DNA from: Arthonia radiata
Taxonomy: Eukaryota > Ascomycota > Arthoniomycetes > Arthoniales > Arthoniaceae
Assembly: GCA_002989075.1 (NCBI GenBank)
Contig: PSQN01000014.1
Coordinates: 1,284,593 to 1,348,592 of the forward strand
Direction: 5' to 3'
DNA length: 64,000 bases
Part shown: in pieces, positions 32,517 through 59,319 of the stretch
Layout of the letters: the number at the start of each line of letters is the position of its first letter
Numbering within the stretch: the stretch's first letter is position 1
Notes under the pieces: model-generated
Databases searched by the model: none
The model's input: the letters and a program-made list of their open reading frames with translations, nothing else
What the model was told of the DNA's origin: nothing
Position numbers and translations under genes: made by a program

Positions 32517-33011
32517 TCAAGGATCCGTATGGCGCTGTTGCGTGAGTGTGGTGATATGTTCACCACTTGAGCTTTCGCGTATTTCTCTCTCGTTGGCGGC
32601 ACGTCTCTCTTCCGAGAACATGTCTCTCGTCATGAGTTCTTTCAGCGTCTCTATCTCCCTGCTTGCCAGGTCCTTCATCTGCTCAATCACATCGTACACT
32701 TCTTTCATGAACGGTGACATGAGTCGACGCTGTGGGTCTTCGAATGCAGCCTCTCGATCAGTGTTCCGGTCTTGGTCTTCGTACCAATCCGCGCAATTCT
32801 CAATTGTTGCGCTATCCGATGAGTGGGCGGCGTTGTGACCGCAGCGAGCCGCGTAGGAGCGCATAGCTCCTTCTTCATGGGTGTCCTCCAAGGCTTTCAT
32901 GACGTTACTGAGGTAACTGCTGACTTCTTGGAGAACGGCACGCTTGGCAGGTCTGTCGTTGGGGGCGATGGCATATAGCGAGGGATCTTCGGATCTTTTA
33001 ATGATGGGCAT
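32517..33011 (-). CDS. orphan small helical protein, family H member H4, 164 aa
   Basis: Not recognised outside this window. Order of elements: AVLQEVSSYLSNVMKALED helix, MRSYAARCGH, DWYEDQDRNTDREAAFEDP, then the long C-terminal helix KEVYDVIEQMKDLASREIE and a basic/acidic tail. No signal peptide. The start at 33011 (MPIIKRSEDP) is preferred because it gives a leader of normal family length; an upstream in-frame Met at 33131 would add 40 residues without family similarity. Confidence 0.75.
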   Translation of the reverse strand: MPIIKRSEDPSLYAIAPNDRPAKRAVLQEVSSYLSNVMKALEDTHEEGAMRSYAARCGHNAAHSSDSATIENCADWYEDQDRNTDREAAFEDPQRRLMSPFMKEVYDVIEQMKDLASREIETLKELMTRDMFSEERRAANEREIRESSSGEHITTLTQQRHTDP

Positions 33012-33283
33012 TGTGCTGGATGTCGCTGGTGAGTTGTTGATGAGTGTGCGGACACAAGATCGTGAGATTCGGCATGAGAGATGAAGCGGGTCATGGCACG
33101 AAGCAGAACACTTGGTAAAGGTGGCAGGCAATTAGGCAAAAGTCTATCCACGTGATGTCTATAGATTACCTTACGAACTCTGTCAACAGTACACGTTTGT
33201 CCGCCAGAGATATTGGCTGGAGTCACACTGTGTAGCTATCCACCCTGAGAATGGACTAGGAGCGCATTTCCTCGGTGCCTACG

Positions 33284-33826
33284 TTATGCAAGATCCACAC
33301 CGAGCTGACCGAGCGCCTCCCTACTGTGTAGACGCATGACGTCGGGATGCTCACGCAGAAAGTCAATCATCTCACCCATGATGGTCAAACGCATCTGACC
33401 CAGCATTGTGTAGACTTCATTAGTGAACGTTGGCATCGAAGCCTCACACCCATTGACTGCGTACGATTGACGGTAAACATCATACTCTTCTCCATCATAC
33501 CAGTCCCACTCGCGCTGAGATAAGGTGTCCGCATCATCGGCTTGCAGAATTGAACTACAGGTATCTGCGTAGGAGCGCATACTGCTGCGCTCGTGTGGGT
33601 CTTCGAGGTGCTTGAGGAGGGTTTCAATGTGGGCTCTGACTTCGTTGAGGAGGTTCCAGCGCGAGAGGATGTTTTCTTCGGAGACTTGACCGGGCAGTGT
33701 AGGCAAAGTCGGCTGGACGAGTGGCTGCGACGTCATTGATGGTAGTGGTGATATTGTCTGTGGAGACTCAGCGTCGGTGTTTTGCGCTGGCGACGGAGAC
33801 GCATCCGCGGGCTCTGTTGACGACAT
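33284..33826 (-). CDS. orphan small helical protein, family H member H5, 180 aa
   Basis: Longest complete copy of cluster A. The disordered leader is rich in Ser, Pro and Thr (about 55 residues). Then LLNEVRAHIETLLKHLEDPHE, MRSYADTCSSIL, WDWYDGEEYDVY and the C-terminal helix NEVYTMLGQMRLTIMGEMID, ending in LREHPDVMRL. It pairs closely with H4 (shared EDxHE and MRSYA), so these two are probably the youngest duplicates of the cluster. No transmembrane or secretion signal. Confidence 0.78.
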   Translation of the reverse strand: MSSTEPADASPSPAQNTDAESPQTISPLPSMTSQPLVQPTLPTLPGQVSEENILSRWNLLNEVRAHIETLLKHLEDPHERSSMRSYADTCSSILQADDADTLSQREWDWYDGEEYDVYRQSYAVNGCEASMPTFTNEVYTMLGQMRLTIMGEMIDFLREHPDVMRLHSREALGQLGVDLA

Positions 33827-35571: not shown

Positions 35572-37249
35572 ATGGATCCACTTTCTATCGTGTCTATCGT
35601 ATCAGTCGTTGGCAGTTTGGTCGCAACAGCTTCCAAAGCAGTTCTCGGCTGCTGGTCCCTGAAGCAGGACTTCGATGACGTGCCCACTGCAATTGCGTTA
35701 CTCCAAGACGAGTGCCGAGTCATTGGATCGGTGTTGTCTTATATTCGCGATGTACTGATGACACACACAGACTCGCTGTCGCGGCGCCTGTCTACACCTC
35801 GAAACCCTTTCTCGGATCTCGTCCATGTCGCATTGACAGGCTCTACAGGTATCTTCGGGCTGCTCGAGGGGGAGGTTCGCACAATCTACGCATCCAGATC
35901 GCCCTTGGAAGACTATGGGTTTGGTCAGAGGACTCGGGTCACTTGGAATGAGCGTAGCCTCTCAAACCTAGTTGAGCGCATGCAGAATGTGAAAGGCACG
36001 CTGAACTTGTTGCTATCGGCTATCCAAACGTAAGTCATTCCTTAGTCACTCGTCGTACGCACGGATATGGGTTGATCACGACTGACGATGCCCCAGTGAG
36101 TCACAACAGGAAATGCTGCGCCTGCTGATGATGCAAGCGCCTGTTGTAGAGTCTGTCCGTCAGACCATCAGCGAGACGTCGCCGGCTCCAAGCGAACATG
36201 AGACCACCAGCATCTTTACAGGTACCGCTGGCGAAGATTGCGAGTTCTCGTTCGACGACGTCATTGTTGATTCAAAGGTGTATCGCGAAGCACTGAAGTC
36301 CATCCAGCGGCGAAACAAAGACCGTATCCAAGACATGTTCGCATGCGCCAGGCAACAATCAGACCCGCCCAGGAACATATCGTTTGCAGACAATCTGAAC
36401 GACGCCAATGGTGTCGGCACGACGATCCAACGCTACGCTTCTGGCGGCGGCAACTCCTCAGATCACTCTGAACACACCGAAACAGACGGTTTGAAGCGAA
36501 GCAAACCTCTGTCGACACTTCCAGCACGATGGCAAGATGGATTTGCAAAGCTGACCAAATCTAACAAGAGGCAGAAACACAACAGCAGCGACTCAGGCAT
36601 ACCCAAACCTGCCAGACGACTTTCACGACCTCGTTCGGAGGACTTGAGCGCAGCCACAAGTTCGCAAAAGGTTAAAGAAGGGCTCGAAGCTACTGTGCTC
36701 CGCAGCGTCGAACAGGCGCCGTTGAGTATCGTTCTCATCGGCCCAGCAGAGTGCGGCAAGTACTTCCTTCACTACCGTCTGGACGTCAAGGTCGATGACG
36801 GACCTGCCGAGCGGTCCTACATGTACTCCCACGATGCCGCTTCAAAGCTGCCGGTAAATTGCCGGTACGGCCAGTATCCGGTGAGCGTTCGCGTGGTGCC
36901 TGAGGCTGCTTTTAACAACGAGACATTCTTGAAGCAATCCCTCACCGGCGCAGATGTCCTCCTCCTCTGCTTCAAAAGCAAGAGCCGCGAGTCTTTTGAA
37001 AGTCTCTGCCGCCTGATTGCCGGTGCTGGCACTCTATGTACTGACCACTACATGTTGTTAACGGGCATTTTTCGTGGCATAGACGTCGAGCCTTGCGACC
37101 TTTCATGGCAAGCGATCGCTGATAAGGCTCCCTATACGAAATACTACAGGTGCGACGCAACCAAGATGGACAACGTCAAAGGCCTTTTCTACAGGGCAGG
37201 AAAGCTGGCTCTGGAGTCACGGTTCGAACGGGTTACGAATGCAACTTGA
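35572..37249 (+). CDS. fungal HeLo-like N-terminal domain fused to a degenerate Rho-like GTPase, 536 aa
   Basis: Exons 35572-36029 and 36097-37249 (67-nt intron, CTGAC branch). It starts MDPLSIVSIVSVVGSLVATA, the hydrophobic opening typical of fungal STAND/NLR N-terminal HeLo-like domains, then a helical region to about 152 (LVERMQNVKGTLNLLLSAIQ). A disordered Ser/Lys linker follows. From about 358 on is a small-GTPase-like fold: LSIVLIGPAECGKYFLHYRL where Rho has GDGAVGKT, then DVLLLCFKSKSRESFESL (compare Rho DVLLICFS), and a Rho-like end DATKMDNVKGLFYRAGKLAL. The G2/G3 segments are unrecognisable, the TKLD-equivalent reads LLTGIFRGID, and no CaaX tail is present, so GTP hydrolysis is doubtful. 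Likely a membrane-linked signalling or cell-death factor (inference). Confidence 0.85.
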
Positions 37250-38386
37250 GATAATATCAAGGCTTCGCTCAATCTGATCAACACTTTTAAGCCTTGTAAA
37301 CAATGACCTTTCATCCCCGAGGCGTCTGATGAGTTGTCACCTTCGGACCGTCATCCTCTGCATTTGGTAGATTATGAACGTCCATGCTTTGATCGTCTTC
37401 TCATCAGAGCTTTCCCGCAGCTGACCTGATTCCCCGGAGGACGCTGTCAAACGGCATGTCAGAAGGCTCACTCGCCAATGGAGCGAAGTCACGTTGGCCA
37501 TATTGCCTGGGAAAACCAGTAGTCAGCTACTGCGTCGCGCTTCAAGTTGAAACCCGTCATCTATGGAATCATCCATTGCAGTGACACCTCGTTGATCAGC
37601 TCAATGGCAAACAATTCATATTGTGGCATCGTCCTCACAGGCTCGTGGTGCCTAGTACGAATTGTGAGTTGCGGGCTGTATGATAAATTGTCTCGCCATG
37701 GCGGCAGACTACCGTGAGTCACAATATCAATCAGACTGAAAGGGACATGGCGGAGCGGGATCTGCGACAGCTGCTGTGATGCGAAGGTCAAGGCTGACTT
37801 CGAAAGCTACGTGAGATGCCCCTTAGAGTGTAGCTCTTTTGAAGACGATGGAACGATGGAACGTGAAGGCAACTGTAGGGCTTCGCAATTTCAAGGCCCG
37901 AACATACGCGCTGTCCCGAGTTTTTCGGTCAATACAGACTATGTCTAGGTCTTGCTCTCACATCTGAGATCGCGAAGGCACAGCACTGACTACTGTTCCC
38001 GGACATATGTTTAAGGCCGGCCATCCGCGCAATGGAGTCACAGACGCATATGGGCGGGTCGTTGCGCAAATGAAGACCTCAAAGTATGGCCGACGATGGT
38101 CGCGAATGAACGCTTGTTGCAAGCGCCGATGCAAGGCTACAAGCGGATGACGGGTAGTCATGGTAAGGAGTCTTTGTTGTATCGAAACGCGAACCGGCCT
38201 CTTCTTACCGCTTTGGCATCGTGGGCATAATATAAATGTTCCTTAAGCGCTGGCTCTCCTTGACCTACATCAACCTCCGACAGCACTCAACAGCTTGCAC
38301 TCCCAGACCCACCACGTTCTCCAGTCAGCCCACTATATTGAGTAATCTGAACCTCCACCAAAACCAAACACAAACCAATCCTCGAC
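37250..38386. other. intergenic, no supported gene
   Basis: No coding evidence. A short ATAATATAAAT stretch near 38227 lies about 155 bp upstream of the MC1 start and could be its TATA element. Confidence 0.4.
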
Positions 38387-38712
38387 ATGTGCGAGACGTG
38401 GGTGCTGAGGTGCCAAAATGAAGAATGCCCTAATTACGAAATTAACCTCGTAAGCGGCTTCTCGCAGTCTTGACTCCTTTCTTACAAACGAACATACTCA
38501 TATTCTGTGGGTAGGATTTCCGCGTCGCAGAATGCCCAAAGGCACCACCTCGGTGCGGAAAGCTCGAAGAGGGTGACACCAGGAGAAGAGAGTGTGAGGA
38601 ATGCAAGAGGAAGAGAGAGATAGAGGAGGATGATCAGATCCAGAAAGCGAAGCGCGACAAGCAGGTGCTGAGGGACCTCGACAATATTCGCTACAAAAAG
38701 AATATCTACTAA
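38387..38712 (+). CDS. family MC member MC1, small Cys-rich protein, two exons, 86 aa
   Basis: Exon 1 38387-38449 (21 codons, MCETWVLRCQNEECPNYEINL split at the end), intron 38450-38514 with GTAAGC donor and GGGTAG acceptor, exon 2 38515-38712. Exon 2 reads DFRVAECPKAPPRCGK, then RRRECEECKRKREIEED and a charged helical tail ending NIY. Family hallmarks: Met-Cys start, second Cys about seven residues later, C-x(2-4)-C near the intron, an EC just after it, and a late C-x2-C before a charged helix. No signal peptide. The Cys pairs suggest metal binding (inference). Longest tail of the family. Confidence 0.75.
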
Positions 38713-40481
38713 GATGGCATTGGTGTAGGCCGAATATCTATTATCGGAGGCATCGGGCCAACATATGCTTACGCTGCGTAGACTGATGCCTTCAGTGGGG
38801 TGTGAGAGCCGGGATGGGACGAGGCTAGCATCAAATAGCGCAGCGACAACGTGGTTAATGTTTAATACCTAATACCCTAAAGAAACAGAAGAGCCCTGGT
38901 GCGAAATCAAACCTTATTGCTGCTGAGTTGGTTTTTGAATACAACTCATAGTCTTGATTGCACTTTGTAGATGAAGATGCTCACATCTGTATTTTTGTAC
39001 GCTGGACATACACAGTGTAGCGTGCCTGGATCTTTTACTGTTGCAGAAGAGCAATTCGAAGTACGTCACCACTGAAACATCCCTTGATAGCGAGTTCGTC
39101 TCTCTCGCCCCGCGGCTGCTCGAAGTAAAAGAATCAGACTGGGTTCTCCACGTCTTGCGAGTCGGAGAACGATGAAGACGTATGTTCTCCAGATAGAGCG
39201 CCTGTTCCTGCGCTGAACCGAGAGAGGCTTTAGCTGAAGCGCTGTTGGTCACATACTCTTGTGTCTGTTATAAATCGTTCTGTGAGAGAGTGAACTTGTC
39301 AGGCATTGCTGGGCGATTGCCCGCGAGCCAATTGGCAGAGCGATGCGAACGAGTATTTTATTCGTGTCTACGAAATGATTGCCATACCAACTCTTCGCTG
39401 CTTGTGCGGCTATCTCGAGGGAAAGACTGTCTTCGCACAGATACTCAGCATCTTGGACTCTCAAGTAGGTCGTAAGACTACGAGGCTAAAGTTTCGGATT
39501 GTAAGTGGGAGGGACATCACGGGTCGGCAAATTACCCTAGTATGCGCAATATATACAAGGGGCAATAATTTGATGCCAAATGTCAGCAGAAAGTACACCT
39601 TATCTCACAGAGAAATCGGTTCCGCTTGCACAACGTACACAGGTCATAAGATATTGCTAAAACTCTCCCATGGATTGACAAGAGCGATGGGAACAGGGGG
39701 TAGTGCGCTAGCGCTGATGCAGATAGCGCGCTTGGCATGCCACGATATTAGTTGCTGCTACCGGGCATCCTATTCTTCCGAGTTTCTTTCTGAATCCTCA
39801 CCTTTTCTTTCACGACTCTACAGAAGCAGAATCACATGTATTGCCTGAGGGTCCATTTGAGCACTCACGAAAATGTTCACTTTGGAGAAACCTGTTCACA
39901 ATGTGCGTGGGTTTCCCTGTCTTCGCGATGGGACGGAGTCCCCTTGAAGAAGTTTGAGAGCGCAGTAGTATGAGGAGCTATTTGCGAGAGCATCTGCGAC
40001 ACGTTTCCCATTCGTTCCGCTGTGATAGGGCGAAGGGCATCCTTGTGAGATACAACGCAAAGGGCTCTGAGCGCCTTGATGGATATTTGGCTCGCGACAG
40101 AGACGAAGGCCGTCGCAAGTATTTCGCGGCTCCCTGACCTTCCTGAAGCCCTTGCAAAGCTGCCATGTCGTCAGCCCCCAGTCGAGCCGTTCAAACGCAC
40201 GTACTATCGCTAATACTGCCTATAATTCTACGACTGCATCTGTCGAACACCCTTGAAAGTACGCTAAAGCCCGCTATGTAGTTGCGCTGCATGCACAGCT
40301 GTCTCCTATGTCGGAGCGAAATGTCTCCGTGCGGAAGCAGGTGTCTTGCTCGCAGCATTAAGCACAGCTGTTCACTGATACCCGGTGTGGCCACTTATGC
40401 AAGTTATTTATAACTCAAAATTCTACATCAGCCTGCAAATTCAGTTTTGTTCCATTCACTGTCCATTACTATCTTTGCGCG
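38713..40481. other. intergenic; possible exon or relic at 39970-40137
   Basis: Mostly without coding evidence. One 55-codon frame at 39970-40137 looks protein-like by composition (FRCDRAKGILVRYNAKGSER, then a charged end) but has no identified partner exon or relative. Confidence 0.35.
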
Positions 40482-40814
40482 ATGTCCAATCTCGTCCGTG
40501 CGACTGTGTATCAGATCGAGAAAAGACTGCCTGGTCACCAATGCGGCGGCCACACTTTCGCGGGCAAGCGATTCGTTTGCATCGACAAGACAGCAGAGCC
40601 TGAGGTTTGGGTAGAGCGGAAGCTGTACGACGAGAAGAGGAGGAACCCTCTCGTCACTAACGAAGTGGACAAACAAACGCACCACGATACGCATGTGTTG
40701 AGCCTCATTCAACTGGCCCCGCGTTGTCGCGAGGTCTACCGTGATGACCTTCCAGAGATGCAAGCCCGATTGGGCGGACATGGCATAGAGTTTACACACT
40801 TGGCCATCGAGTAA
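40482..40814 (+). CDS. orphan ORF, 110 aa
   Basis: ATG-started frame with protein-like composition: VYQIEKRLPGHQCGGHTFAG, then WVERKLYDEKRRNP, THVLSLIQLAPRCREVY, ending FTHLAIE. Three Cys, no signal peptide, no recognised domain. It sits among MC genes but does not show their Met-Cys start or Cys spacing. Confidence 0.45.
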   Translation: MSNLVRATVYQIEKRLPGHQCGGHTFAGKRFVCIDKTAEPEVWVERKLYDEKRRNPLVTNEVDKQTHHDTHVLSLIQLAPRCREVYRDDLPEMQARLGGHGIEFTHLAIE

Positions 40815-40968
40815 ATCGGCGCCTGACCCTATTGTTGCACCATACACAAATCCGATACTTGCTGGACGCGCTCAAAGGCGGGGGCATGTGAATTTTTAGA
40901 AATGAGACGACCCTCTTGCATCCTTTCTGCACGCGCTGGCGCTGACGCATTCACATCAAAGGGCACTC

Positions 40969-41268
40969 TTGTCCGAATCCAATGAGGACGGCCGTCATGT
41001 TCCTTACGCAGTTGTCGGCGTAGGGAAGATGAAGGAAACTAAGTTCTCAACGGACGAGCATTCGTTCTTTCATTGGCGGCGTCGCTACGTACACGGAGAT
41101 TGTAACGAGGTCAACTATGAGACGAATGGTCTTGCTGGCATGCTAGATGCATCGAATCTCTTTGTCGCATATGAGAAGGGTGATCAACCATTCGTTGATA
41201 AGGTAGTACGGCAGCAGGTTCATGATTACCCATCGAATCGGCCACCCGAAAAGGGGAAGGGGAAATGA
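40969..41268 (+). other. orphan open frame without ATG, possible exon or gene fragment
   Basis: A 100-codon stretch with coding-like composition (PYAVVGVGKMKETKFSTDEH, then RRRYVHGDCNEVNYETNG and a Lys/Pro-rich end). The frame stays open upstream to about 40907 but contains no ATG, so it is either a downstream exon whose start I could not place or a fragment. The preceding 150 bp contain a different short frame starting MRRPSCILSARAG. Confidence 0.35.
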
Positions 41269-41481
41269 GAAAGAGTCTCTACAGAAGCCACACAAAAACA
41301 CTGTAGTTCTAATGAGTCCGCCTTCCACTGTGCATACAGTGTTTCATTTCTCCCTTTTACAAGATGCAAGTGTCACACATCCCAGCTGCAAATCCTTCGC
41401 ATCACTTGCAACGTTGCTCAGACTACACCAACAACTATACCACTAAAGAGCCCGCACCCTAATCCCCATCTCACTTCAAGC

Positions 41482-41717
41482 CAGTGTTCCGATCAAATCA
41501 GATCGATCAAATCCTGGCCTCTCCCTTGATCGATTTGGAGTGCTCCGAACCCTGCCCTTGATTTGACTTGCCTACTTAATTAGGGAAATACGAGTCAAAT
41601 CGCCAAGCATTGACTTGGAGGCTTCAAATCAAGGCCAGTCTGGAGGGCGATTTGATCGATTTGATTTGACCCTTGACTTGATTTGACTTGACTGGCCTTG
41701 ATTTGATCGGAAAACTG
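41482..41717. mobile_element. hAT-type MITE, 236 bp, with 8-bp target-site duplication
   Basis: Terminal inverted repeats of 19 bp with one mismatch: left CAGTGTTCCGATCAAATCA (41482-41500), right end TGATTTGATCGGAAAACTG (41699-41717). Both sides carry the same 8-bp direct repeat CTTCAAGC (41474-41481 and 41718-41725). An 8-bp duplication with CAG-starting TIRs is diagnostic of the hAT superfamily. The interior has no coding capacity and is filled with subterminal repeats of TTGATTTGA, ATTTGACTTG and their complements, as expected for hAT transposase binding sites. It is non-autonomous and sits 62 bp upstream of the MC2 start. Confidence 0.92.
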
Positions 41718-41779
41718 CTTCAAGCGACCCATCTCTACCCAAATCCAAATCTGCCCCTCGAATTTTCTTCACAAGAATC

Positions 41780-42070
41780 ATGTGCCATCGCAACTACACC
41801 CTCTGCCGCTGCGGCGACACAGTCAGCACCTACATCTCCGAATGCCACCGCGAGCTGCGTCGTCAACGCGAGTGGGCCCAAGGTATCGCGCCGCGGGACG
41901 AGTGCGTCATCCGTCCGGGCAGCGAGACCACGACCCGGCGGCTCTGTCGTGGTTGTCTGGATCGGCTCAAAGCCGAGCGTGAGCGTAGAGAGCGCGAGGA
42001 GCGCAGGGCGCGGAAGGACTATGAGCGGGGCATGCGCCGTGGCGAGCAAGAGCGGTACTACGGATACTGA
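41780..42070 (+). CDS. family MC member MC2, intronless, 96 aa
   Basis: Starts MCHRNYTLCRCGDTVSTYISEC, split in other members by an intron exactly between CRCGDTVS and TYISEC. It then has CVIRPGS, RRLCRGCLDRLKAE and a long Arg/Glu helix (ERREREERRARKDYERG). All family Cys positions are kept. No signal peptide. As the only intronless copy it either lost the intron (for instance via a cDNA) or kept the ancestral form. The MITE just upstream probably lies in its promoter. Confidence 0.82.
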   Translation: MCHRNYTLCRCGDTVSTYISECHRELRRQREWAQGIAPRDECVIRPGSETTTRRLCRGCLDRLKAERERREREERRARKDYERGMRRGEQERYYGY

Positions 42071-42430
42071 TGGAGGAGTCTGCGTCGGCTCAAGTAGGCC
42101 TGCGAGGAGACTGTGAGAGTGAAGGGCTCTGGCCCGCAGAGGTAGCTTAGATACGAGTGTAATTGTTGTGGGCGATTGTGCGGGGAGTTTTGGTGGGGTT
42201 AGGAACCCATGGTGACGAGTCCAGGCATTGAGTTTTTTAGGATAGTCCAGGGCTTGTCGAAGTCCCGCGGTCATAGATTGGTCAACGCCACAAACGCCTT
42301 TTGCAAACGTCCGTCAATCAAACGGCTTCCAGTTGTCCAATAATTCCGAACATCGACTTCCTGTCCTGGTTCATTCTGTACTTACTTCGAAAGTTCCTAA
42401 ACTCAACGCAAAGCCTCCATCAAAGCAAAC

Positions 42431-42757
42431 ATGTGCATCAGACGTATCGAGTCATGCCCCAGCTGCAAAATCGAAATGGTATGTATACCACAATCATTCG
42501 CCTCGTGATGATAGTATCTAAAATCCGCTCAGCTTACCTACATCGTCGAATGCAGCACGATAGCCTGGCGTCGTGCGCGTAAAGCCCGCGGACTTCCCGT
42601 TCCCGGTCCACTGATCGCTGCGGATTGTGTCAAGGGGAATGAGGTACGCAATGCGTCGGAGTTGTGCCATCATTGTCTGGAAGCCGAAAAAGTCTTGGAA
42701 GAGCGGTACGAACGCGAGCAAGAGGAGAAGTGCCGTCTCCGTGAGGAGGGTGGCTAA
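42431..42757 (+). CDS. family MC member MC3, two exons, 90 aa
   Basis: Exon 1 42431-42478 (MCIRRIESCPSCKIEM), intron 42479-42532 (54 nt, GTATGT donor), exon 2 42533-42757. Exon 2 starts LTYIVECSTIAWRRARKARG, the same YI-x-EC step as MC2, then PLIAADCVKGNE, SELCHHCLEAEKVLEERY and an acidic/basic helix. Phase is 0 at the junction, and an alternative acceptor at the downstream GCAG leads to an early stop, which supports this model. Confidence 0.8.
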
Positions 42758-43482
42758 TTGCTTGACCGTTTGTGGAAGTCTTGATCATGGATGGGAGCAC
42801 TGAGATGATTAACGGTATGCGGTTTGTATCGCAGGCGTTGGCTTCGACAGTGTTCAGGTTATTCCGGCCTGCCAATTTTGATTTGAGATACGTTAATTGA
42901 GCATCCATAATCTCGATTGATTATGAACAGCTTCTTGTAGTTGAAAGTTCGCATTGGCATGGTCAAACGGTGAAATTCCAGTCGCGTCTGTCCACTTACA
43001 AAGTCGGTTTCGCTTTCAGAATATAATGTTCCTCAAACAATCCTAAATCCGCGCGAAGACCTAAGCCAAGCATGTCGCATCTCGCTGCGATGTCTCAATA
43101 CGACACCATGTGAGAGCGAAGTAAGCCTTGTCTCCTTTGAACGTCGACAGAAAATTATCAGCATCTGTAATCAGTGCCACATTCGCAGCTCGTTGCTCGA
43201 CGATACCATATGTTCATAGCGACGTGAATATTAGAGGAGTGAACGAAACTTGGCGTGTGGCGCATGTTGCCCACTTCCAGACGCACTGTACCTTCACCTT
43301 TACCTTCACTCTATCCTTTTTCTGTGACCCCGAGTCCCATTTGCGAACATTCCTTTGCAACACCACATCTGCAAGTTCGAGCCAACGCGCAACAACAACA
43401 CCTGCATTTCCCAAAATAGCCTTCAGCAACCTTGTCACAAAACCGCTTACACAGCCCTTATCACACAAAGCGCACCACCATC

Positions 43483-43871
43483 ATGTGCCGGGTCGAGAAC
43501 TACTGGTGCCCCGGCGAGGGTGGTCGTTGCGGCCGTTGTATGGTAAGCCACTCCTTCCTTGCCACTTATCTTAATCAGGTTAAGTCCGCCAGCTTTTATC
43601 TAATCCTTAGCTTAGTAGATTAGCTCATTTTAAGGTCTTTCTAATTTAATGCTATTTAGCTTAAATTAACGTACTTTAATAAGCTTAGCTAATTATTAAG
43701 TTAATTTACAAAATTTGGATTAGCTTGAAGGGAACCCTGTTTCCACGAGGCCAGATCTGCCCCTACACGGTCTTCAGAACTTACACCTATAACGTCAAGT
43801 GTAGTCGCTGCCTCTACTACGAACAGCGTGACCGTGAGGCGTATCATCGCAGCGGTCGATGGATGCGCTAA
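43483..43871 (+). CDS. family MC member MC4, two exons, 58 aa, enlarged AT-rich intron
   Basis: Exon 1 43483-43542 (MCRVENYWCPGEGGRCGRCM), donor GTAAGC. Proposed exon 2 43755-43871 after GGCCAG: ICPYTVFRTYTYNVKCSRC, then LYYEQRDREAYHR and WMR stop. The late C-x2-C followed by a charged helix is kept, but this copy is shorter. The 212-nt intron is three to four times longer than in relatives and carries the TA-rich insert described separately. The acceptor choice is driven by phase and could be wrong. Confidence 0.65.
43580..43732. repeat. TA-rich insert within the MC4 intron
   Basis: The base composition changes abruptly to TA/TTAA-rich sequence (many TTAG, TTAA and CTAA words), unlike the flanks but like the 62.2-64.0 kb region. 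It looks like a RIP-mutated or decayed repeat fragment. Ends are approximate; no clear TIR or target duplication was found. Confidence 0.5.
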
Positions 43872-44496
43872 AGTCTTGCTGAGGGGAGCTCGTGATCGGA
43901 AACGTTGGACTGTAGACCCTGGGTCACTGAAAATGCTGTGGTTGGGGAAAGCTTGGCCATATACATGAAGGTGGTTGGAGTGGTGTACTGAGACTCAAGG
44001 TCTGGCATACGTCACTGCAGATGACGTCGAATTTGAGCTGGCCGGATTATTGTCCACGGGAAGTGGGTGGGTAGCGAAAGCAATGACAGGCTTACTTCGA
44101 ACGAATGCTGGATGACTGCACCGGTTTTGGTCGGCTTGTAGAGCTGTACTGTACATCTTCAGTTGATCAAGCATGCTAGAGCTTACCTCAATGTCAAAGT
44201 ATCGCAATGACGCTTTCAGAAAGCCACTAAACGACACTTCTCACGCGGCCAACAAATGCCAATCTTCTGCATACCGACCAAGTCGTTTGAGAGCGGCCGT
44301 TCGTTGATTTACATAAAGAATTCCACTTTCGCTTCTTGTTTTTCGGGATTCACTACTGCACTGCTTCTCTGTGTCAAACATCAATCAACCTTAGGAAGAA
44401 TTTCGAGCCCGCATCAGAAACACCAGGCATTTCATCAGTAACAGCCGCGCCCACTTTAGCAGCAACCCTGCACGTAGCACCAGAAATACCACCAAC

Positions 44497-44796
44497 ATGT
44501 GCGATAAAATCAATTACTGCTGCCCCGGAGGATGCGGGCGAATCATGGGCTTTGCTGCCTCGAAAGACCCGCTCTGCTGCGGCACAAGCTGACGGAGTAC
44601 ATAGGATTGGTTTACTAATCGCTGCAGAACTGCCGACGACAGACGTGCAGCTCTACCGCGAGACTCGCCCCGTTCAAACTGGCTGTGTTCAAACCCAGTG
44701 ACAAGAAACGGGATATCGCGCACCTTGTGTCCTGGTTGCGAACAAGAAGAACAGTGCAGACGTGGGCTCGGTCGCAATATCTCATGGATGCATTAG
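44497..44796 (+). CDS. family MC member MC5, two exons, splice donor apparently mutated
   Basis: Exon 1 44497-44547 reads MCDKINYCCPGGCGRIM, closely matching MC6 and MC8. Where all relatives have GT the sequence is ATG|GGCTTT, so the donor is GG. Exon 2 44605-44796 after ACATAG continues in phase: DWFTNRCRTADDRRAA, then LCPGCEQEEQCRRGLGRN and a TAG stop; it would give 80 aa. Without splicing, the first frame ends after 31 codons. It is either a freshly inactivated copy, a non-canonical intron, or a base error at the donor. Confidence 0.6.
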
Positions 44797-45024
44797 CTCC
44801 GGCTTGGTATGGAGGGCTAAAGTGGCGCGCTCCTCAAGGGCAACGAGGTCGCGGATGTGAGCAACTTAATGCGATCGACGTGTCTCTCGATGATGTATTC
44901 AAATGATGACTTAACGTAATCGATTGCCACGTTCAATCTCGACGTGATAGATTGACTGCCACCACAAGATCTTCCAAACGATGCCAGAGATCGGTCGAAC
45001 TGTCAGGATACGTTATGATTACTG

Positions 45025-45092
45025 CTCGTTCGTTCGTTCGCTCGTTCGTGCGCTCGTTCGTTATTTCGCTCGTTCGCTCGCTCGTTTGTTCG
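45025..45092 (+). repeat. imperfect (TTCG/CTCG)n microsatellite
   Basis: About 68 bp of CGTT/CGCT tetranucleotides with a few interruptions. It ends about 150 bp before the MC6 start codon, in what is probably its 5' region. Confidence 0.9.
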
Positions 45093-45240
45093 ACAATGTC
45101 TATAAGTTTGTTGAGTGTCTTCGACCTCTTCATCGTTCTTGCGACACTCACGTACTAATTGACAGCGCCCCTGAACAGGTCAAGATCGCCGAGTTCAGCT
45201 TCGAGAGCGTATACACATACCACCATACTCACCGATCAAC

Positions 45241-45476
45241 ATGTGTCACGAAGTAACTGAACGATGCCGTGGGAGCTGCGGCGAGATCATGGTAGTCGCT
45301 ACTGCCTCCCAGCCGACGACGTAGCTAACATTGAATCGCAGGATGAATACTTAGTCAAGTGTAAAATAGCAGAACGACGGGATAACGGATGCTCTGCAGT
45401 CGTGCTAAGAGAAGTTCGCTCTAGCTCTACGTGCGATGACTATGTCGAGTGCGAGCGTCGCAAGCAAGAGCGCTAG
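45241..45476 (+). CDS. family MC member MC6, two exons, 61 aa
   Basis: Exon 1 45241-45291 (MCHEVTERCRGSCGEIM), intron 45292-45341 (50 nt, GTAGTC donor, GCTAAC branch, CGCAG acceptor), exon 2 45342-45476 (DEYLVKCKIAERRDNGCS, then STCDDYVECERRKQER). Short form without the long tail. The final Cys pair is C-x5-EC rather than C-x2-C. Confidence 0.8.
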
Positions 45477-46138
45477 GACTGTGAGCGCTGTCCCGATCTG
45501 ACTATCAAAGCAGCAAGTGGTGGGGGGGCGTGGAATGTGAGTCTGGTTATTCGGTGTGGCAAAGCCGCTGTCAATATGTCACAACAGACGAAGACACCGG
45601 TCAGCTTAAGCCAGATACCGCTCGCTGTATTCGACTTTCGGTGCGTAGGAGAAGCCTGCCTCCTCTGATGACGAGCATTTGAGAATTTTCAATGTATGTA
45701 GATATGCTCGGCAGAGTATGTCGAGCATTATTGATATCATGGTAATCCTGCGGGCAGCCATGCGCTGAACGCAGCTGGGCAGCCCGTGGTAGAGAACAGC
45801 AATCCAATTTATCTTCTTCACGGATTGCAGTTTTGGTTGTCTGTCTGAAACACATCGCAGCCTAGGTACCGTGACCGATACGTAAGGGTAGTGCGAGCGC
45901 TTGCACTTGGGCGCAGTTCGTAAACTGCAACGCCAAACGTTGCGCTGCAAACACTGCTTTTCCAAATTATTTCTAAGCCACTGCCAGACTTTTCTTACTT
46001 CCTGCACGCCCGCATCCAATGATCGGAGATCCGCGCATGCAGAACCACAAACCAACACTTGACATCAACCACGTCAAGAATAACGTGAACTGGTCTGTAC
46101 ATTCTCAAGTGTCACGCATTCGCGAGACAATAGCTGCG

Positions 46139-46416
46139 ATGTGCCCTGGCAGTTGCGGTAAGACCGTGGTAAGAACTTCTGGTCCAGGCAACGCTGTTTC
46201 AGAAAAGCAATCAAGCTGACGGTCGATGTGTAGGACCACAAGAACAACACATGTGGGAAGTGGATGGAAGTCCTCTTCCGTGACGGCTTCGTGGCTGACC
46301 GTATGTGCCCGGACTGGAGGCGAATGACACCTTATTCGAATTCCTTTTGCCTTATATGCCAAGACCAGGAGCGAAATGAGCGTGCTGCGCGCAACAACGA
46401 GAGGTCTAGCCGATGA
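46139..46416 (+). CDS. family MC member MC7, two exons, start uncertain
   Basis: Exon 1 ends MCPGSCGKTV at 46168 with donor GTAAGA; intron 46169-46233 (65 nt, GCTGAC branch); exon 2 46234-46416 reads DHKNNTCGKWMEVLFRDG, then RMCPDWRRMTP, FCLICQDQERNERAARNN. By alignment the usual N-terminal Met-Cys should lie about seven residues before CPGSCG. Here that stretch reads RETIAAM with no Cys. The frame is open upstream to a Met at 46019, which would add 40 residues. Confidence 0.65.
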
Positions 46417-47171
46417 ATCTCAATCTTCGAGGTCTTGGCTGGCCACAGTATGTCCAACGTTGATGCTGCGGAGAATCACAAGCTGACGTGAAAAGTCATA
46501 CGCGTGACTTCGGCATCGATAACACTTTGATCGTGACCGTTCAGCTGTCAAGAGTCTTGGAATTTGGATGTCTTGCAAGATGACTTTCCAGAATGGCAGT
46601 GGGAGGAGCAGAAGTGGTTGGCTTTGGCTTCATGAAATACCCTTCATTGAAGGTAACGCAATTCGGATTTCTATGAGTAGCTTGAGCGCGAAGCAGCCGA
46701 GGAGACCATGGTTGGAGGAACGTAAACGTAGCTCCAATGCTTGAAACTATCAGTACCGATTCTCGTCAATTGAGCCATCCGTCATGTTAATATGCGGCAG
46801 TCGTACTTCATGAGCGATCCCAGACGTGGTGACCAAGAGGCGTTCGACGTTCCAATCTGTTGCCTCGCCACCATTGTTAGGCAGCCAGCCTGCTAGCACT
46901 GCTTCAAAAGAGTGCGACCTTGATTAATATCGGGAAAGGCTGTGCTGCAATTCTGCCTCTAATTTCGTGCGTTTGTAGGCCCAACAGTTAAGTCGACGCC
47001 ACTTGTTACCAAACGCCTCGAAGAAGCTGTTCAAAACAATCGAGATCAACAGCTGTTTGTTGCGCTTCCTCCATCACTTCGCAAGTTCGACGATTCTTGC
47101 AGGCCATCATCACAACTCATCGCAAGTTTGTCGTAACAACAATTCAGACAAAATCATCCAGAAATATCATC

Positions 47172-47417
47172 ATGTGCATGGTGCGCGACTATATCTGTCC
47201 AGGGGGCTGCTTCCGCATTCTGGTAATGGCTAAATGCAGGCTTTGAGCGCATTGGACATTCGCTAACCCTCGCCGATAGCATACACGCATTGATACGTGC
47301 GGCGCTGCCAGAGCGCGTGGGATTGAATATACCAGCTGCGAAGCCACGCGGTACAGGACTGGTTACTGGTCATCAAGATGCACCGAGTGCGACGAACGTG
47401 GGCGTCGTGGGCGCTAG
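47172..47417 (+). CDS. family MC member MC8, two exons, 62 aa
   Basis: Exon 1 47172-47222 (MCMVRDYICPGGCFRIL), intron 47223-47279 (57 nt, GTAATG donor, GCTAAC branch, GATAG acceptor), exon 2 47280-47417 (HTRIDTCGAARARG, IEYTSCEATRYRTGYW, RCTECDERGRRGR). The Y-T-x-C-E step corresponds to the YI-x-EC of MC2/MC3. If the intron is not removed the frame ends seven codons later, which is why a simple ORF scan misses this gene. Confidence 0.8.
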
Positions 47418-48572
47418 GAAGACAGCGGGCGTGAGGGTGGAGCACCTCTGCGAGAGAGAATGGAGGTACTGAGGGTCCTTGCGGATATGTCGAGGATACC
47501 TGAAAAGGCAGCCACCAGTGCTCGTTCAGAAGAGCAAGAAGGATACCCCAGTCGGAGCTCGCTCTCGGAAGGGGCTTGGATCCATCAGTCAGGGTCTTCA
47601 GCAGGACTTCGAATACCATGAGTGCCAGTGACATGGCCTTTTACTCGATAGAAGATACCACGCCAACGCTCCATAAAACGACGTCAATCCTTAGAACCTG
47701 GCCATAACCATCATTCTGTCTTCGGAATGTATAGCAGGCCCATGTTATGCACAGTGCAGCAAAGATCTGTATTCAAGCGTGGTGGCCGCCTAGGCGCAGA
47801 AGCCACACGAGAAACGTCGTCGTATTAAGTGTATACTGGACTTGCCTGTCGCTTGTAGCAGCGGGCGTGATCTCTTCGCTATAGCCAGCGCCGATTCCAC
47901 TTTAATCTCCCACAAGGCCATAAATCAAACAATTGAGGCTTGTGCATCTTTACATCTGCGCTTATACCTCACATCTTCACCACCGCCTCTCATGATGCCT
48001 GGAAAGCTGTCTGAAGACTCCCGGACAATGTACGTTCACAAGAAGCGGGAGGCTCGACATTCGCATACCCTTTGCCCAATCAAAATAGCCGACATACAGC
48101 AGCCGACAAGGTTGCCTCGCCCCAGCATCGAAACGTGTGCTGCATCACAATACCCTGGAGCCACCAGTGCGGAGCAACGTCCCGGACGCAGGACTTCTAG
48201 ACTACAACACAATCAGTGATCGCCGATGCTGAAAGACGATTGTGAACGAGGGCGTCTCCGCAGCCACCTGTCGACGCTGCCGCGGAGCCATTGAGCGGGC
48301 CAACCCGCAATATGCGACCGAAAGCGAGGGCCTGCTCAGGATGGGCCGAATTGCAGCCGATATTCACGTTGGGGAGCAGTAGCTTTCGCAAGAGGTGATA
48401 CAGATTGCGACTAGACGTTTCCGGAAAACAAGGTCAGTGTGATGGAGACGGAAGATCGAAGGAACGAAGGTCGATATCGAAAACATCAAGTCGAAAATCA
48501 CAAGGTTGTGTTAGGTTTATGCGGACGTAGGGAAGCTGCGCTCCGCGGTCCGTGCCATTGCTCAGAGGATCT
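47418..48572. other. intergenic; possible MC relic near 48.26-48.38 kb
   Basis: No complete gene. After a CTCCGCAG acceptor-like site the frame at about 48256 reads TCRRCRGAIERANPQYA to a TAG at about 48382, reminiscent of the MC C-x2-C plus charged tail. I found no phase-compatible first exon, so it may be a remnant. Confidence 0.35.
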
Positions 48573-51167
48573 TCATGGACTATGCTCGCCTATATTTTCA
48601 TTTTGACAATGATGATGATCCTCGGTTGATGTTACAGCTCCAGCTTCTATCGTCTTCGGTTGTCCGTGATCACCAAGACGACGTCGACGAAGCCCACGGC
48701 TGCCTTGCGACCCTAGCACCGCTCGAGCCAAGGTCTCTTGTGCGGACGAGCTCTCATCTTGAAGCAGTGCCATTGGGATACCGAGAAGATTCCCGGCAAC
48801 GAGCTTGTTGACATGTCGAACCATTGCTCGAAGAGAGAATGGATTCCTCTGCCTCGCAACGCGGTTCGTACGCTCTGAAGATTTGTAGTGAGGATCAAAA
48901 AGTACCTGAAGACGATACCGCACAGCAAGGCGTAGTACGCTCCGATCTATTTGCAAGCCGTGTCTTTGCAGTGACTGAAGAAGTCGGATACCTCGGTCCC
49001 ACTGGGTCAAATGGTCGTAAGGCGTGGAGACGGCGTCGTCAGCGCTCGTGAGAGCATTCGAGTGTACTGGCTGTAGAGGCAAAGATGGAGACAATCTGCT
49101 TGTCTTTGGGACGTTTTGGCCCAGGGTCTTGAAGCCCCACTCAACGATGGCGCGCTGCTTAGCTGGGGTGAATATCAGCGCGAGCCCGTTTTCACTTGGA
49201 CGGCGCGGTCGAAAGCGTTGAATGCGCCGAAGCGTCTGCTCCTTTTCGAGCAGTGTGTCTGGGCTCAGATCTTCAAGCACGGAAGCTCGCGCATCCCCTG
49301 GAATTTCGTGAGTTGTGTACAGTGTCGCAAGCTGCATAGACAAGGATTCAAGCTCTCCTATTCGACCTTGCATGCCGTAATAAGTCAAGACCTGGCGCCA
49401 TGAGTAGAAAGGGATCCGACCGCCTGCGCCGAGAATCTTCAGCCACATACGCGTCAATAACGCGAGATGGTCATCTTCGCGAGCTCTAGAGCGTATAATA
49501 GGTGTTTTTCCTGGAAATCGAGAATGCAAGAGCATGAAGAAGGACTTGTTGATGGTTTGTTCCGTGATTGTGACCTGCTGGGCAATCATCTCATCAAGAA
49601 TGGTCAAGATCATTGGCCAGTTCTTCTTTAGCAAGAGACCACGCAACAGTATGTTCCATGCCTGCTCAGATGGCTTTTGATAAAGCACGGTCAGCACAGT
49701 GAGGGTTCGGTGCAGCTGTCTCCAGTCTCGGCTTTGCATGTACTGCTCGAGAAGGCGCAGCTGCAAAAGGCGGTCGTCGTACACTTCGGGATGTAGATCA
49801 CTTTCAACCACGGCTTCAAACATTGACTGATTTCGGTCGAAAGCAAGACGCTGCATGAGTTTGTTGTACATGCGATCTTCGATGACGACGCCTTCGTCCT
49901 TGAGTCGCTGGAAGTATTGCACAAGATCGCTGACAGTCTTGCAGCGTACTGCAAGTTCTCGCATGGCCTCGATACCAAGCAGCTGAAAGTTGAAGCTGAC
50001 CAGACCCGTGATAATGAAGTTGACTGAAAACGCTCGAGTCGCGAATGCTCGCGCAGCTGTTTCATCGCTGATGGTCTTCCGCTTGCTCTCATCATTAATC
50101 GCCGCTTCGTCAATCGACTTGTCGTGTGCGCTACTAGCTCTCGCCCCAGCCATAGATGCAAGGGGAGCAGCAAGAGAGCGACTTATCTTTGCGAGACTGC
50201 TCCTGAAAATTTCGAAGGTCTCCTGATCGCTAAACAGAGCGATGTGCTTTGCTAGAGGCTCAACCTCTGTGGTCGTTTCCGGCAAGTCTCCATGCCTGAC
50301 CAGAAAGTGATGAAACGACAAGGCCTCTTTGTAAAGGTCTCGCTTGCAAAGCTCTGGAATGAGCCAACCGTAAGTATCACGATCGACGTGGCGCAAAAGG
50401 ACGAGCTTGAAAACGTTCAGTGACTCAGCTGAGGATAACGCTGGCTCCAGAAGCTCCCTCAGCGAGCCCTTGACGGTGAAAGACGGCCGAGAAACCCTCA
50501 TGCGTCTTGCCCAATCGGGCGCACGTTTTGGCTCTGACTTCAATACTGGCGCAAGTAGCTCCACGTAAAATCTACTCCACCAGTGGCCAGTTGCCCGAGC
50601 CTGTTCATTCGCCAGTGCCCAGACTTGTTCTCGGAATATCTTGTCGTCTGCAGCGGCGGCGAGAAATTTGGTCCAGAATGTATCAGCCACTACGCCCCTG
50701 GTAGGCACGGCCACCGCCCTTCTTTTCATGCCGTGAAAGATATCTCTTGCTCCATTGTCACCGTGAATTCGCTGCCGAAACTCCAGCAGCTCTATCCACA
50801 ATGTGATGTTTGATCTGTAGATGCTCTGATCGACAAGCAAAATCGAATCAGTAGAGGGCTCGTGATTGACGTCGGATTGAGCTTCGAGGTCTTGAAAACT
50901 ATTGATAGCAGTCTTCACCGCCGGATGCGCGACTGTCTTCGGTGTTGAGGTATGCCCTGATGAGCTTCTAGGTCTCGGTGCTACATCATCAAAGCTGATA
51001 AGGGTGCTTGCGAGCCTGGCATCGCTTCGACTGTTCAGCCAGGACGACGTGAGGAAGGACGGGGGTTGTCGCTGTATACGAGCTCCGCAGGGTGCAGGTC
51101 GCACAACCAAGGTGTGGCAACATTTGAAGCTGCCTCCATTATGGCCGCGGAAAGCAGTTCGCATCAA
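48573..51167 (-). CDS. mitochondrial pentatricopeptide-repeat (PPR) protein, 864 aa
   Basis: Single-exon gene. The first about 55 residues are Arg/Ser-rich and nearly free of acidic residues (MMRTAFRGHNGGSFKCC... RLASTLISFDD), a typical matrix presequence. The body consists of helical pairs of PPR type, clearest at VSDLVQYFQRLKDEGVVIED, YNKLMQRLAFDR, AWNILLRGLLLKKNWPMIL and WRQVLTYYGMQGRIGELESL. Fungal PPR proteins bind organellar RNA and control processing or translation. I cannot say which mitochondrial transcript this one serves. The C-terminal 100 residues are basic. Confidence 0.85.
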   Translation of the reverse strand: MMRTAFRGHNGGSFKCCHTLVVRPAPCGARIQRQPPSFLTSSWLNSRSDARLASTLISFDDVAPRPRSSSGHTSTPKTVAHPAVKTAINSFQDLEAQSDVNHEPSTDSILLVDQSIYRSNITLWIELLEFRQRIHGDNGARDIFHGMKRRAVAVPTRGVVADTFWTKFLAAAADDKIFREQVWALANEQARATGHWWSRFYVELLAPVLKSEPKRAPDWARRMRVSRPSFTVKGSLRELLEPALSSAESLNVFKLVLLRHVDRDTYGWLIPELCKRDLYKEALSFHHFLVRHGDLPETTTEVEPLAKHIALFSDQETFEIFRSSLAKISRSLAAPLASMAGARASSAHDKSIDEAAINDESKRKTISDETAARAFATRAFSVNFIITGLVSFNFQLLGIEAMRELAVRCKTVSDLVQYFQRLKDEGVVIEDRMYNKLMQRLAFDRNQSMFEAVVESDLHPEVYDDRLLQLRLLEQYMQSRDWRQLHRTLTVLTVLYQKPSEQAWNILLRGLLLKKNWPMILTILDEMIAQQVTITEQTINKSFFMLLHSRFPGKTPIIRSRAREDDHLALLTRMWLKILGAGGRIPFYSWRQVLTYYGMQGRIGELESLSMQLATLYTTHEIPGDARASVLEDLSPDTLLEKEQTLRRIQRFRPRRPSENGLALIFTPAKQRAIVEWGFKTLGQNVPKTSRLSPSLPLQPVHSNALTSADDAVSTPYDHLTQWDRGIRLLQSLQRHGLQIDRSVLRLAVRYRLQVLFDPHYKSSERTNRVARQRNPFSLRAMVRHVNKLVAGNLLGIPMALLQDESSSAQETLARAVLGSQGSRGLRRRRLGDHGQPKTIEAGAVTSTEDHHHCQNENIGEHSP

Positions 51168-56945: not shown

Positions 56946-57265
56946 AGTAGCGACGTGCTCCTCTGGCTCCCTTCGCTCTTTAGCTCCCTTCGTAAGGCCG
57001 CACGAGGGACGACGGTCAACGAGATAAGACTGCAGCGAGGCACAATTTAGCGTTCCAGGTAACCACAATTGCATGCAAAAGCTTCTGGACCACATATATT
57101 TTAGGCCGATCGGACCTGAAACCAATTGAGCGTTATGATCTCATCACGTGAATGTTTCACTCACCTTGCACTTCTTCATCTTCGGCTCCTAGATCAAGGC
57201 TCTTCCAGCTTGACGACCATCAAAACACGCGTTCCACGACATCGACCTCATCCATCGCATACAAT

Positions 57266-57704
57266 ATGGCGACAGCCCAAATGGCCGACCCCTCCACGAG
57301 CACTCGAACCAACACACTCCGCGAAGTACACTCTTACTTCATGTCTACTCTCGACGCACTTGAGAGCCCGTTCTCTCGTGACGCAAATGTGAGCCGCCAG
57401 TATCAGGTAGTCAATTTCGCACGAGCACGGCGCACAACGGCTTCCAATCCAGAGTTTGACTTCCTTTTGGAAACTCTGGAACCAAGCCTTGCTTCAAAAC
57501 CATGTCGCTTGCACGGACTCGATGCTCACGACAGCGCCCGCCAAGACACTCTTCGCGGTGATGCGAGCAATGCTGTGGACGCTCTTGGCCGAGCTTGTTG
57601 GAACAGACTCAAGTGCGGAGGAAGAAGCGATGAATCCCGAGTTCCAGGGTCTTCTGTCGAGCGTGCATGATCTCTTTGAGCGGGTCGAACGTGCAGCGCA
57701 GTGA
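57266..57704 (+). CDS. orphan small helical protein, family H member H7, 130 aa, probable intron
   Basis: Starts MATAQMADPSTSTRT; helix NTLREVHSYFMSTLDALESP. The family pattern then breaks unless a 46-nt intron (57407-57452, GTAGTC to TCCAG) is removed. After that it resumes in phase with SLTSFWKLWNQALLQNH and MRAMLWTLLAELVGTDSS, then AEEEAMNPEFQGLLSSVHDL. The intron restores the xLxxFxxxC/W block present in all relatives. No other member has an intron here and no clear branch point is visible, so a compensated frameshift remains possible. Confidence 0.65.
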
Positions 57705-57919
57705 TTGTGTGACTTCGTCATCACATTGGTTGCTAGTTGATGGTGAGAAGGAGGTAGCTACTGATTGCGACAAGTACGCAGGCAGCAGCTATGAAACTTT
57801 CACCTGGGAATTGCATCTAGCTCCCAGTCTCTGCTTCATTGCTTCTCTTCTCCTCTCCTTTCTATTCATCAACAAAATTACACTGCTCGTCATCGATTGG
57901 CAATAGCCCAGCTTACACA

Positions 57920-58372
57920 ATGGCATCGTCACAAAGCATTCAGCAAGCCACGCAGAGCCGGTCAACCACACTCATTGAGGTCCATGGCTACCTTTCTCGA
58001 ATCATCGATACCATCGACAAGCGCATCAACGAAGAGGATTATCATCTTCAGAAGTTCCATGACAAGTGTGACAGAGAAGTCGACAAATATGATGAGGACG
58101 ACCATGAGGACGACCATGAGTACAAGAAGCTAGAGGATGACAGTGAGTGGGCATACCAGGAGTTGCAGCACAACGAAGACACACTAGCTATTGGCGCAAA
58201 CACTCCCACTGACGAGCTGATCGAGATCCTGAAGAGCATGCTTTGGGTTCTCTTGGGCGAATTGAAGTCCAAAGATGCCAGTGAGGAGGAGACTGCAGTA
58301 TCTGAGCGCTTCGAGAGATTGCTGGATGAGGTGAGATGGACTTCGGACAATCTTCGACATGAGAGTCACTAA
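57920..58372 (+). CDS. orphan small helical protein, family H member H8, 150 aa
   Basis: MASSQSIQQATQ start; helix LIEVHGYLSRIIDTIDKRIN; FHDKCDREVDKYD; an acidic repeat DDHEDDHE; EWAYQELQ; then the cluster-B signature LKSMLWVLLGELKSKDASEE followed by SERFERLLDEVRW. ATG in CACAATGG context. An upstream in-frame extension exists but lacks family similarity. Intracellular by sequence. Confidence 0.8.
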   Translation: MASSQSIQQATQSRSTTLIEVHGYLSRIIDTIDKRINEEDYHLQKFHDKCDREVDKYDEDDHEDDHEYKKLEDDSEWAYQELQHNEDTLAIGANTPTDELIEILKSMLWVLLGELKSKDASEEETAVSERFERLLDEVRWTSDNLRHESH

Positions 58373-58653
58373 GTGGCTGCTCGCGGAAGTGACTCATAAG
58401 GTGCTTTGCGAGGGATCGGACCGCCGACGAGAACCACCTGTTACAATTCGATAATGCATGCAAGTTTCGCGCTCGCGAAGAATGACCAAAAGCAGACACA
58501 GCTTCGGCTCTTCACTTCAATCACCTGACGACCCTACTCTTTCCTCATCTTCCCAGGTCGGACTGTCTGGCAATCTTCTTCACCACCGCATCAAAGTCTA
58601 CGCAACGTAGCTACGCTGCTAATCAACCTGGCACAACTTCAGTGCAATACGTC

Positions 58654-59106
58654 ATGTTAACTTCGTCAACGCCAGTGGCCACTGACCCGACACCTCCGTC
58701 CCGTTCCGACACTCTTGCGGAGGTACACGACTATCTCGAATCTATCCTCGACGAACTCAGCTCTCAAAGACTCGCTAATTGCGGTCCACTCAGCCTCTTC
58801 TATCGCGACTGCGAGAAGAGAGGGGCAGCTTCCGGTGATCACCAACAGGAGCAGTGGTATGCGGAGAACTTGCCATGGACACGCAACGAGCTGTTGAGTG
58901 TTTCGACATCATTCGGTAACACCAAATATTTTGTGCTAGATCTACTTCACGTCATCGACTCGATGTTGGGCACCTTGCTTGAGGAGCTAGCTCCGAAGGA
59001 GGCCAGTGAGGAGACGGCGCCGATGGTACCGAAGTTTGAGAGGTTGCTGAGGATTTCGAGGAAGATGATCACGCGTTTAGGTGGCTCGGAACCTTCAACT
59101 GGATGA
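58654..59106 (+). CDS. orphan small helical protein, family H member H9, 150 aa
   Basis: MLTSSTPVATDPTPPS start; helix DTLAEVHDYLESILDELSS; LSLFYRDCEKRG; EQWYAENLPW; then VIDSMLGTLLEELAPKEASE and PKFERLLRISRKM. Shares with H8 the adjoining (K/P)xASEE block and the FERLL helix. Confidence 0.8.
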   Translation: MLTSSTPVATDPTPPSRSDTLAEVHDYLESILDELSSQRLANCGPLSLFYRDCEKRGAASGDHQQEQWYAENLPWTRNELLSVSTSFGNTKYFVLDLLHVIDSMLGTLLEELAPKEASEETAPMVPKFERLLRISRKMITRLGGSEPSTG

Positions 59107-59319
59107 CCCTAGGTGCTTGAAAATCAGTACTTCTCGTGATATGCCAAGAGCTTCAGAGATATCTGCACTGTGCAGCCTCACTTTGAACATGAATGACCCC
59201 CTAACACCAATATTTACCTTGCACTTTGACCTTTACCCTGTGTGATCTTGCGAGGATCACAAAATAACGCTCTACAATTTACGTGCATCACTGGAGAGGT
59301 CAACAACTACCACTTAAAA

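Follow-up and report, generated by a model that had tools for sequence, protein, structure and literature searches.

A tandem array of small cysteine-rich genes, partly split and partly decayed, in the genome of Arthonia radiata

Gene models of the array

The DNA analyzed here (the window) is a 64-kb stretch of the 33.5-Mb, 16-contig genome of Arthonia radiata, C5:1284593-1348592, C5 being contig PSQN01000014.1. It carries an array of eight loci, MC1 to MC8, all on the plus strand, with short cysteine-rich reading frames that start with Met-Cys. A first-pass annotation had presented these as eight split genes of one plan. The cluster is genuine, though less uniform than first described. All eight Met-Cys starts (ATG-TGY) were present on the plus strand, and complete models were obtained for six loci (MC1, MC2, MC3, MC6, MC7 and MC8). 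Only five of the eight, however, are both split and complete (MC1, MC3, MC6, MC7 and MC8); MC2 is intronless, MC4 uncertain and MC5 broken, and the cluster is therefore a mixture of intact, intronless and broken copies. The first exons, put at 17-21 codons, in fact span 10-21, MC7 having 10. Coordinates are collected in Table 1.

The products are 61-96 amino acids (aa) long, end in an Arg/Lys/Glu-rich tail and, in MC1, MC2, MC3, MC6 and MC8, share the plan M-C-x6-C-x1-4-C-x10-13-C-x6-24-C-x12-13-C-x2-5-C. The late Cys pair, part of the original description, was found in every complete model, as C-x5-C in MC6 and as C-x2-C in the other five, and the gap ahead of it is 12-13 residues in all seven models, MC4 included. 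Two further motifs proved less general: the EC step ahead of the fourth Cys is literal in MC1, MC2 and MC3 (3/8), and CPGGC occurs in MC5 and MC8, while MC6 has CRGSC and MC7 has CPGSC. At the DNA level no similarity between the copies was detected by blastn (word size 7, E 0.1), the sole yield being short imperfect inverted repeats (window 41471-41727) that directly precede MC2, the gene with no intron, and may be what is left of a small mobile element. The models thus support the description of a divergent tandem family that has kept its Cys order and, in the split copies, its intron position. They also bear out the warning that annotation based on open reading frames (ORFs) would miss most of it: when ATG ORFs of at least 60 codons are listed, MC2 is the one complete model out of six that is included in full. 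Tiny split genes of this kind are easily overlooked.

The five introns originally listed begin with GT and end with AG at exactly the proposed bases, and the frames are open on both sides. The expectation that an intron directly follows the first exon held for MC1, MC3, MC6, MC7 and MC8; it did not hold for MC2, which has none, or for MC5, which lacks a GT donor at the family position, and MC4 is uncertain in this respect. All called introns are in phase 0, and in the split copies they separate the first Cys cluster from the single Cys that follows it. In the spliced products, the two Cys flanking the junction are 10 residues apart in MC3, MC6, MC7 and MC8 and 13 in MC1; in MC7 the equivalent pair is formed by its second and third Cys. 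The gap between the third and fourth Cys of MC2 is likewise 10, matching spliced MC3, MC6 and MC8, and because it is present there without an intron, MC2 is a natural spliced control. Such an intronless paralogue allows splice models to be checked from sequence alone. When the 49 open donor/acceptor choices of six split genes were compared, only the called choices of MC3, MC4, MC6, MC7 and MC8 combined a 10-residue junction gap with a late Cys pair, although the MC4 acceptor was chosen by frame and its junction-gap Cys may not be equivalent to those of the other genes.

Branch-point-like words are seen near the intron ends of MC6 (CTAAC, 17 nt before the end), MC7 (CTGAC, 18 nt) and MC8 (CTAAC, 17 nt). 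No such word was present in the last 45 nt of the MC3 intron; MC1 has only TTGAC, 45 nt from the end, and the putative MC4 intron only CTAAT and TTAAT, at 42 and 30 nt from its end. The putative MC4 intron is 188 bp long, approximately three times the length of the others, with a G+C content of 31% and an AAG acceptor; this AT-rich segment may be an insertion.

Table 1. Positions and predicted structures of the array members and tentative decayed copies (window coordinates)
Feature	Position	Strand	Exons and introns	Product	Remarks
MC1	38387..38712	+	exon 38387-38449, intron 38450-38514, exon 38515-38712	86 aa, 7 Cys	long charged tail
MC2	41780..42070	+	single exon, no intron	96 aa, 7 Cys	long Arg/Glu tail
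MC3	42431..42757	+	exon 42431-42478, intron 42479-42532, exon 42533-42757	90 aa, 8 Cys	
Tentative decayed copy	43072..43232	+			Cys-spaced segment, then GTAAGC and CxxC; no ATG at family position; read by eye
MC4, uncertain	43483..43871	+	exon 43483-43542, putative intron 43543-43730, second exon from 43731	66 aa, 7 Cys	Cys outside the seven-Cys plan
MC5, broken copy	44497..44800	+	first-exon part kept; no GT donor at family position		stop after 31 codons; CxxC remnant of second exon persists downstream, past further stops
MC6	45241..45476	+	exon 45241-45291, intron 45292-45341, exon 45342-45476	61 aa	last Cys pair C-x5-C
MC7	46139..46416	+	exon 46139-46168 (10 codons), intron 46169-46233, exon 46234-46416	70 aa, 6 Cys	first Cys segment absent
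MC8	47172..47417	+	exon 47172-47222, intron 47223-47279, exon 47280-47417	62 aa, 7 Cys	
Tentative decayed copy	48130..48390	+			start-like codons GTG-TGC-TGC with Cys spacing, in-frame stop, then CxxC segment in a different frame; read by eye

Excess of sites over chance expectation

The loci had been chosen by eye in the first-pass annotation, and frequent words such as ATG-TGY and GT/AG could have been put together in that way by chance. Codon usage near background in six of seven models, and antisense ORFs that overlap three of them, would be in keeping with this. The frequency of such sites was compared with that in control sequences. A strict rule, which required Met-Cys, a Cys pair and a CxxC and allowed for an intron, found four sites in the window, all on the plus strand, and no site when the reversed sequence was scanned on both strands; 60 Markov controls, each 64 kb long, gave a mean of 0.017 and a maximum of 1. 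A relaxed splice-aware rule found seven plus-strand sites, comprising six MC loci and one background site at 16836, and again none on the minus strand; 40 Markov controls of the same length averaged 0.2 sites, the highest count being 2. Both rules were drawn up with the list of loci already known, and are therefore not blind.

A later rule of the same kind was applied to previously unexamined sequence, where it recovered five genes of a second array and one low-complexity background site, in the stretch labelled L012 (40 controls: mean 0.1, maximum 2). The splice-aware scans covered 264 kb of the 33.5-Mb genome. Over the same length, a loose rule based on the start only gave 15 sites on the plus strand and two on the minus strand, 14 of these 17 being array members; 20 controls gave a mean of 2.6 per strand and a maximum of 6. 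With an empty minus strand, 0.017-0.2 sites per 64 kb in the Markov controls and a second array found by such a rule, assembly by chance is hardly credible.

A second array on the same contig

The second array was found by scanning 100 kb on each side of the window. It lies at C5:1196471-1204390 (L013), approximately 119 kb upstream of MC1, and comprises nine copies in approximately 8 kb. Eight of these are open and start with Met-Cys, including one that lies on the minus strand; the ninth is also open but lacks a start codon at the homologous place. The contig carries at least two arrays, that of the window among them. The second-array genes are single open frames with no intron within the reading frame, so the intron at the first Cys cluster is not a trait common to both arrays and the split structure is not a hallmark of the family; as MC2 is also intronless, the intron was not treated as defining. 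In 264 kb of one contig there are thus 14 complete members by the models (six in the window, eight in the second array) in addition to decayed ones, and the catalogues searched name none of them. Within L013, a 776-bp tandem step that includes the upstream region (4085-5101, 68% identity) has a second copy that is open, with no ATG at the homologous place.

The two arrays share a Met-Cys start, a Cys pair, two single Cys, a late CxxC and a tandem layout. Their spacings differ: the five seven-Cys members of the second array have x4 and x2 at the start, where the window array has x6 and x1-4, and x18-19 ahead of the CxxC in place of x12-13. Tails in the second array are also less charged (31-55% D/E/K/R, as against 50-86% in the window array), and an HP(E/D) step is found in four of its five seven-Cys members. 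The seven-Cys order as written (C2, C-C pair, C, C, late Cys pair) was matched by 10 of 15 sequences, namely five of seven window models and five of eight second-array genes, the misses being MC4, MC7, A1, A2 and A9. An hhalign comparison of five second-array with seven window sequences gave a score of 23.4 and a pairwise E of 8e-4, with a stated probability of only 24% and a match confined to the first 27 columns; the best score among 100 permuted controls that kept Met-Cys was 15.2. Protein searches of the source genome with A7 led to five other places, all within the second array, and those with A1, A2 and A9 returned self-matches only. With MC1, MC2, MC3, MC6 and MC8 as queries (MC4 and MC7 were not used), the same search returned self-matches and no further family member. 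Two weak extra matches (MC2 to C1, E 0.19; MC8 to C13, E 0.09) contain stops, do not follow the family plan and were rejected.

The array could also be a graveyard, that is, derived from real genes of which most copies are now non-functional, with the Cys spacing simply inherited. The broken MC5, the odd MC4, the two further copies that are likely to have decayed, the lost start codon in the second array and the weak codon usage are all consistent with this. However, the window copies have no DNA similarity left at the blastn sensitivity used, whereas six of them keep their frames, splice sites and Cys gaps. Furthermore, dN/dS (nonsynonymous to synonymous rates by the NG86 method) was below 1 in all four second-array pairs for which it could be computed (0.46, 0.40, 0.33 and 0.51, with dS of 0.77-1.72; a fifth pair gave no dS), values that are rough and non-independent because the pairs share sequences and one protein-guided alignment. 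On balance, an array of mostly dead copies is considered unlikely.

Database searches and a zinc-binding interpretation

Matches to known families were sought with both arrays. No Pfam family scored above its curated cut-off with seven window models or five of the eight second-array genes, and no NCBIfam family did so with six window models and one second-array gene. The protein database held nothing at E <= 1 for MC2 (78 word-sharing candidates) or for a five-sequence second-array alignment (24 candidates), although relatives may have been missed, as short Cys-rich proteins share few exact words. A control search with a neighbouring WD40 gene (window 15772-16812) showed that dothideomycete proteins are present in the database: its five best matches had 76-88% identity and were followed by proteins at approximately 64%, from dothideomycete genera. 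In the Protein Data Bank (PDB), the window profile had no match at E <= 10; the second-array profile had six chains at that level, namely two of PRDM9 (0.0011 and 0.0015), two of RNA polymerase subunit 12, one of ECU08_1170 and one of a designed helical repeat, with an individually passing stretch in the ECU08_1170 chain only (E 1.5) and none in either PRDM9 chain. Nothing reached the gathering score of an Rfam family over window 37000-49000, and the listings and opening lines of abstracts returned by a literature search held nothing that bears on the family. The claim that the family is undescribed goes as far as these searches reach, and no further.

The zinc-ribbon and treble-clef domains (e.g., Pfam Zn_ribbon_19, matched below threshold only) resemble the family in having two close Cys pairs approximately 30-50 residues apart; the MC proteins differ in having extra single Cys between the pairs and a Met-Cys start, and show no significant profile match. 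Among the sub-threshold Pfam names of the second array, four of seven are zinc-binding (Zn_ribbon_19, Yippee-Mis18, zf-C3HC4_3 and zf-DNL), each in one of five members.

The first-pass annotation had described the products as lacking signal peptides, and a simple hydropathy scan agreed: the highest 9-residue mean within the first 39 residues was 0.30-1.62 across 15 sequences of the two arrays, values that indicate no obvious leader. This bears on whether the products might be exported by a non-classical route and act outside the cell with their Cys in disulfide bonds. Small size, six to eight Cys, rapid divergence and tandem arrays are usual in small secreted Cys-rich proteins, and the ascomycete members of that class resemble the MC proteins in size, Cys content, fast divergence and tandem clustering. 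In contrast, none of the 15 sequences has a hydrophobic leader and 11 of them have seven Cys, an odd number, and the CxxC pairs and charged tails would better suit metal binding in a reducing compartment, which makes an extracellular role quite improbable. A metallothionein-like metal buffer is a further alternative, since the proteins are small, apparently intracellular and Cys-rich, like fungal metallothioneins, and tandem amplification is a usual route to higher metal tolerance. Metallothioneins are Cys-dense, however, with many CxC and CC steps, whereas Cys makes up only approximately 7-12% of the residues here, in one or two close pairs with the other gaps long and fixed, and the tails are charged. 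A buffering function is accordingly very unlikely.

The reading we favor, with moderate confidence, is that the window array belongs to a lineage-specific gene family that evolves through tandem birth and death and whose products are small, intracellular and probably zinc-binding. Zinc rather than disulfides is suggested by the fixed order of the seven Cys, by the close pairs towards either end and by the absence of a leader, and a metal-binding frame is probable. In such proteins, the Cys clusters (one near the start, and the CxxC near the end) would coordinate one or two Zn2+ ions under the reducing conditions of the cytosol or nucleus and shape a small knob resembling a zinc ribbon or treble clef. 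The charged tail, together with the long helix predicted for MC2, suggests binding to a nucleic acid or protein partner, which the tail might contact as a helix. The arrays would grow and shrink through tandem duplication, divergence and decay, a process that would leave little beyond the Cys frame. Expression and function, like zinc binding itself, are read from sequence, zinc from the CxxC pairs and the lack of a leader.

Several observations weigh against this reading. Codon usage sets apart only MC1 (percentile 0.999 against background; MC2 0.73, MC3 0.70, MC4 0.50, MC6 0.58, MC7 0.84, MC8 0.12), and the called frame scored highest of the three in only three of seven models (MC1, MC2 and MC3). 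ORFs of 179 aa (with ATG, 41735-42274), 92 aa (42630-42908) and 123 aa (47263-47634) run antisense to MC2, MC3 and MC8, respectively, and an unspliced 70-aa ATG ORF (45264-45476) enters the second exon of MC6 in the same frame. Third codon positions in A6/A3, one of the five pairs compared in the second array, do not vary more than first positions. Below the cut-off, the top-ranking Pfam name for the second array is DUF2688 (E 0.015), which is no zinc domain, and the names matched by the window proteins at that level are not zinc domains either. No relative outside the source genome was found with the two database queries, MC2 and the second-array alignment. Finally, an AlphaFold2 model of MC2, made from the single sequence, is poor (mean predicted local distance difference test score, pLDDT, 65.6); it places strands at 8-11 and 41-44, a helix at 17-33 and a long helix at 49-94, and residues 1-16, with three Cys, should not be read from it because their pLDDT is below 50.

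Small Cys-rich orphan genes in tandem are a familiar kind; the novelty lies in the seven-Cys frame without a leader, accompanied in one array by a first intron that is shared. If the proteins do bind zinc and are expressed, they would represent an unstudied class of intracellular small proteins under tandem birth and death. That they are fast-diversifying intracellular zinc knobs in self-recognition or genetic conflict, in which paralogues keep the metal frame and vary the surface, is a speculative and rather doubtful proposal.

Other genes were noted around the array. A tandem family of 150-200-aa ORFs with an LREVHxYL-like motif flanks it (window 32517-33826, minus strand; 57152-59778, plus strand); three of its six members were scanned and none had a Pfam match above cut-off. 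At window 22913-25006 (plus strand), a PNP_UDP_1 phosphorylase-superfamily domain (25.2 bits, cut-off 25.1) is joined to tetratricopeptide repeats, which is the layout of fungal NLR-like proteins.

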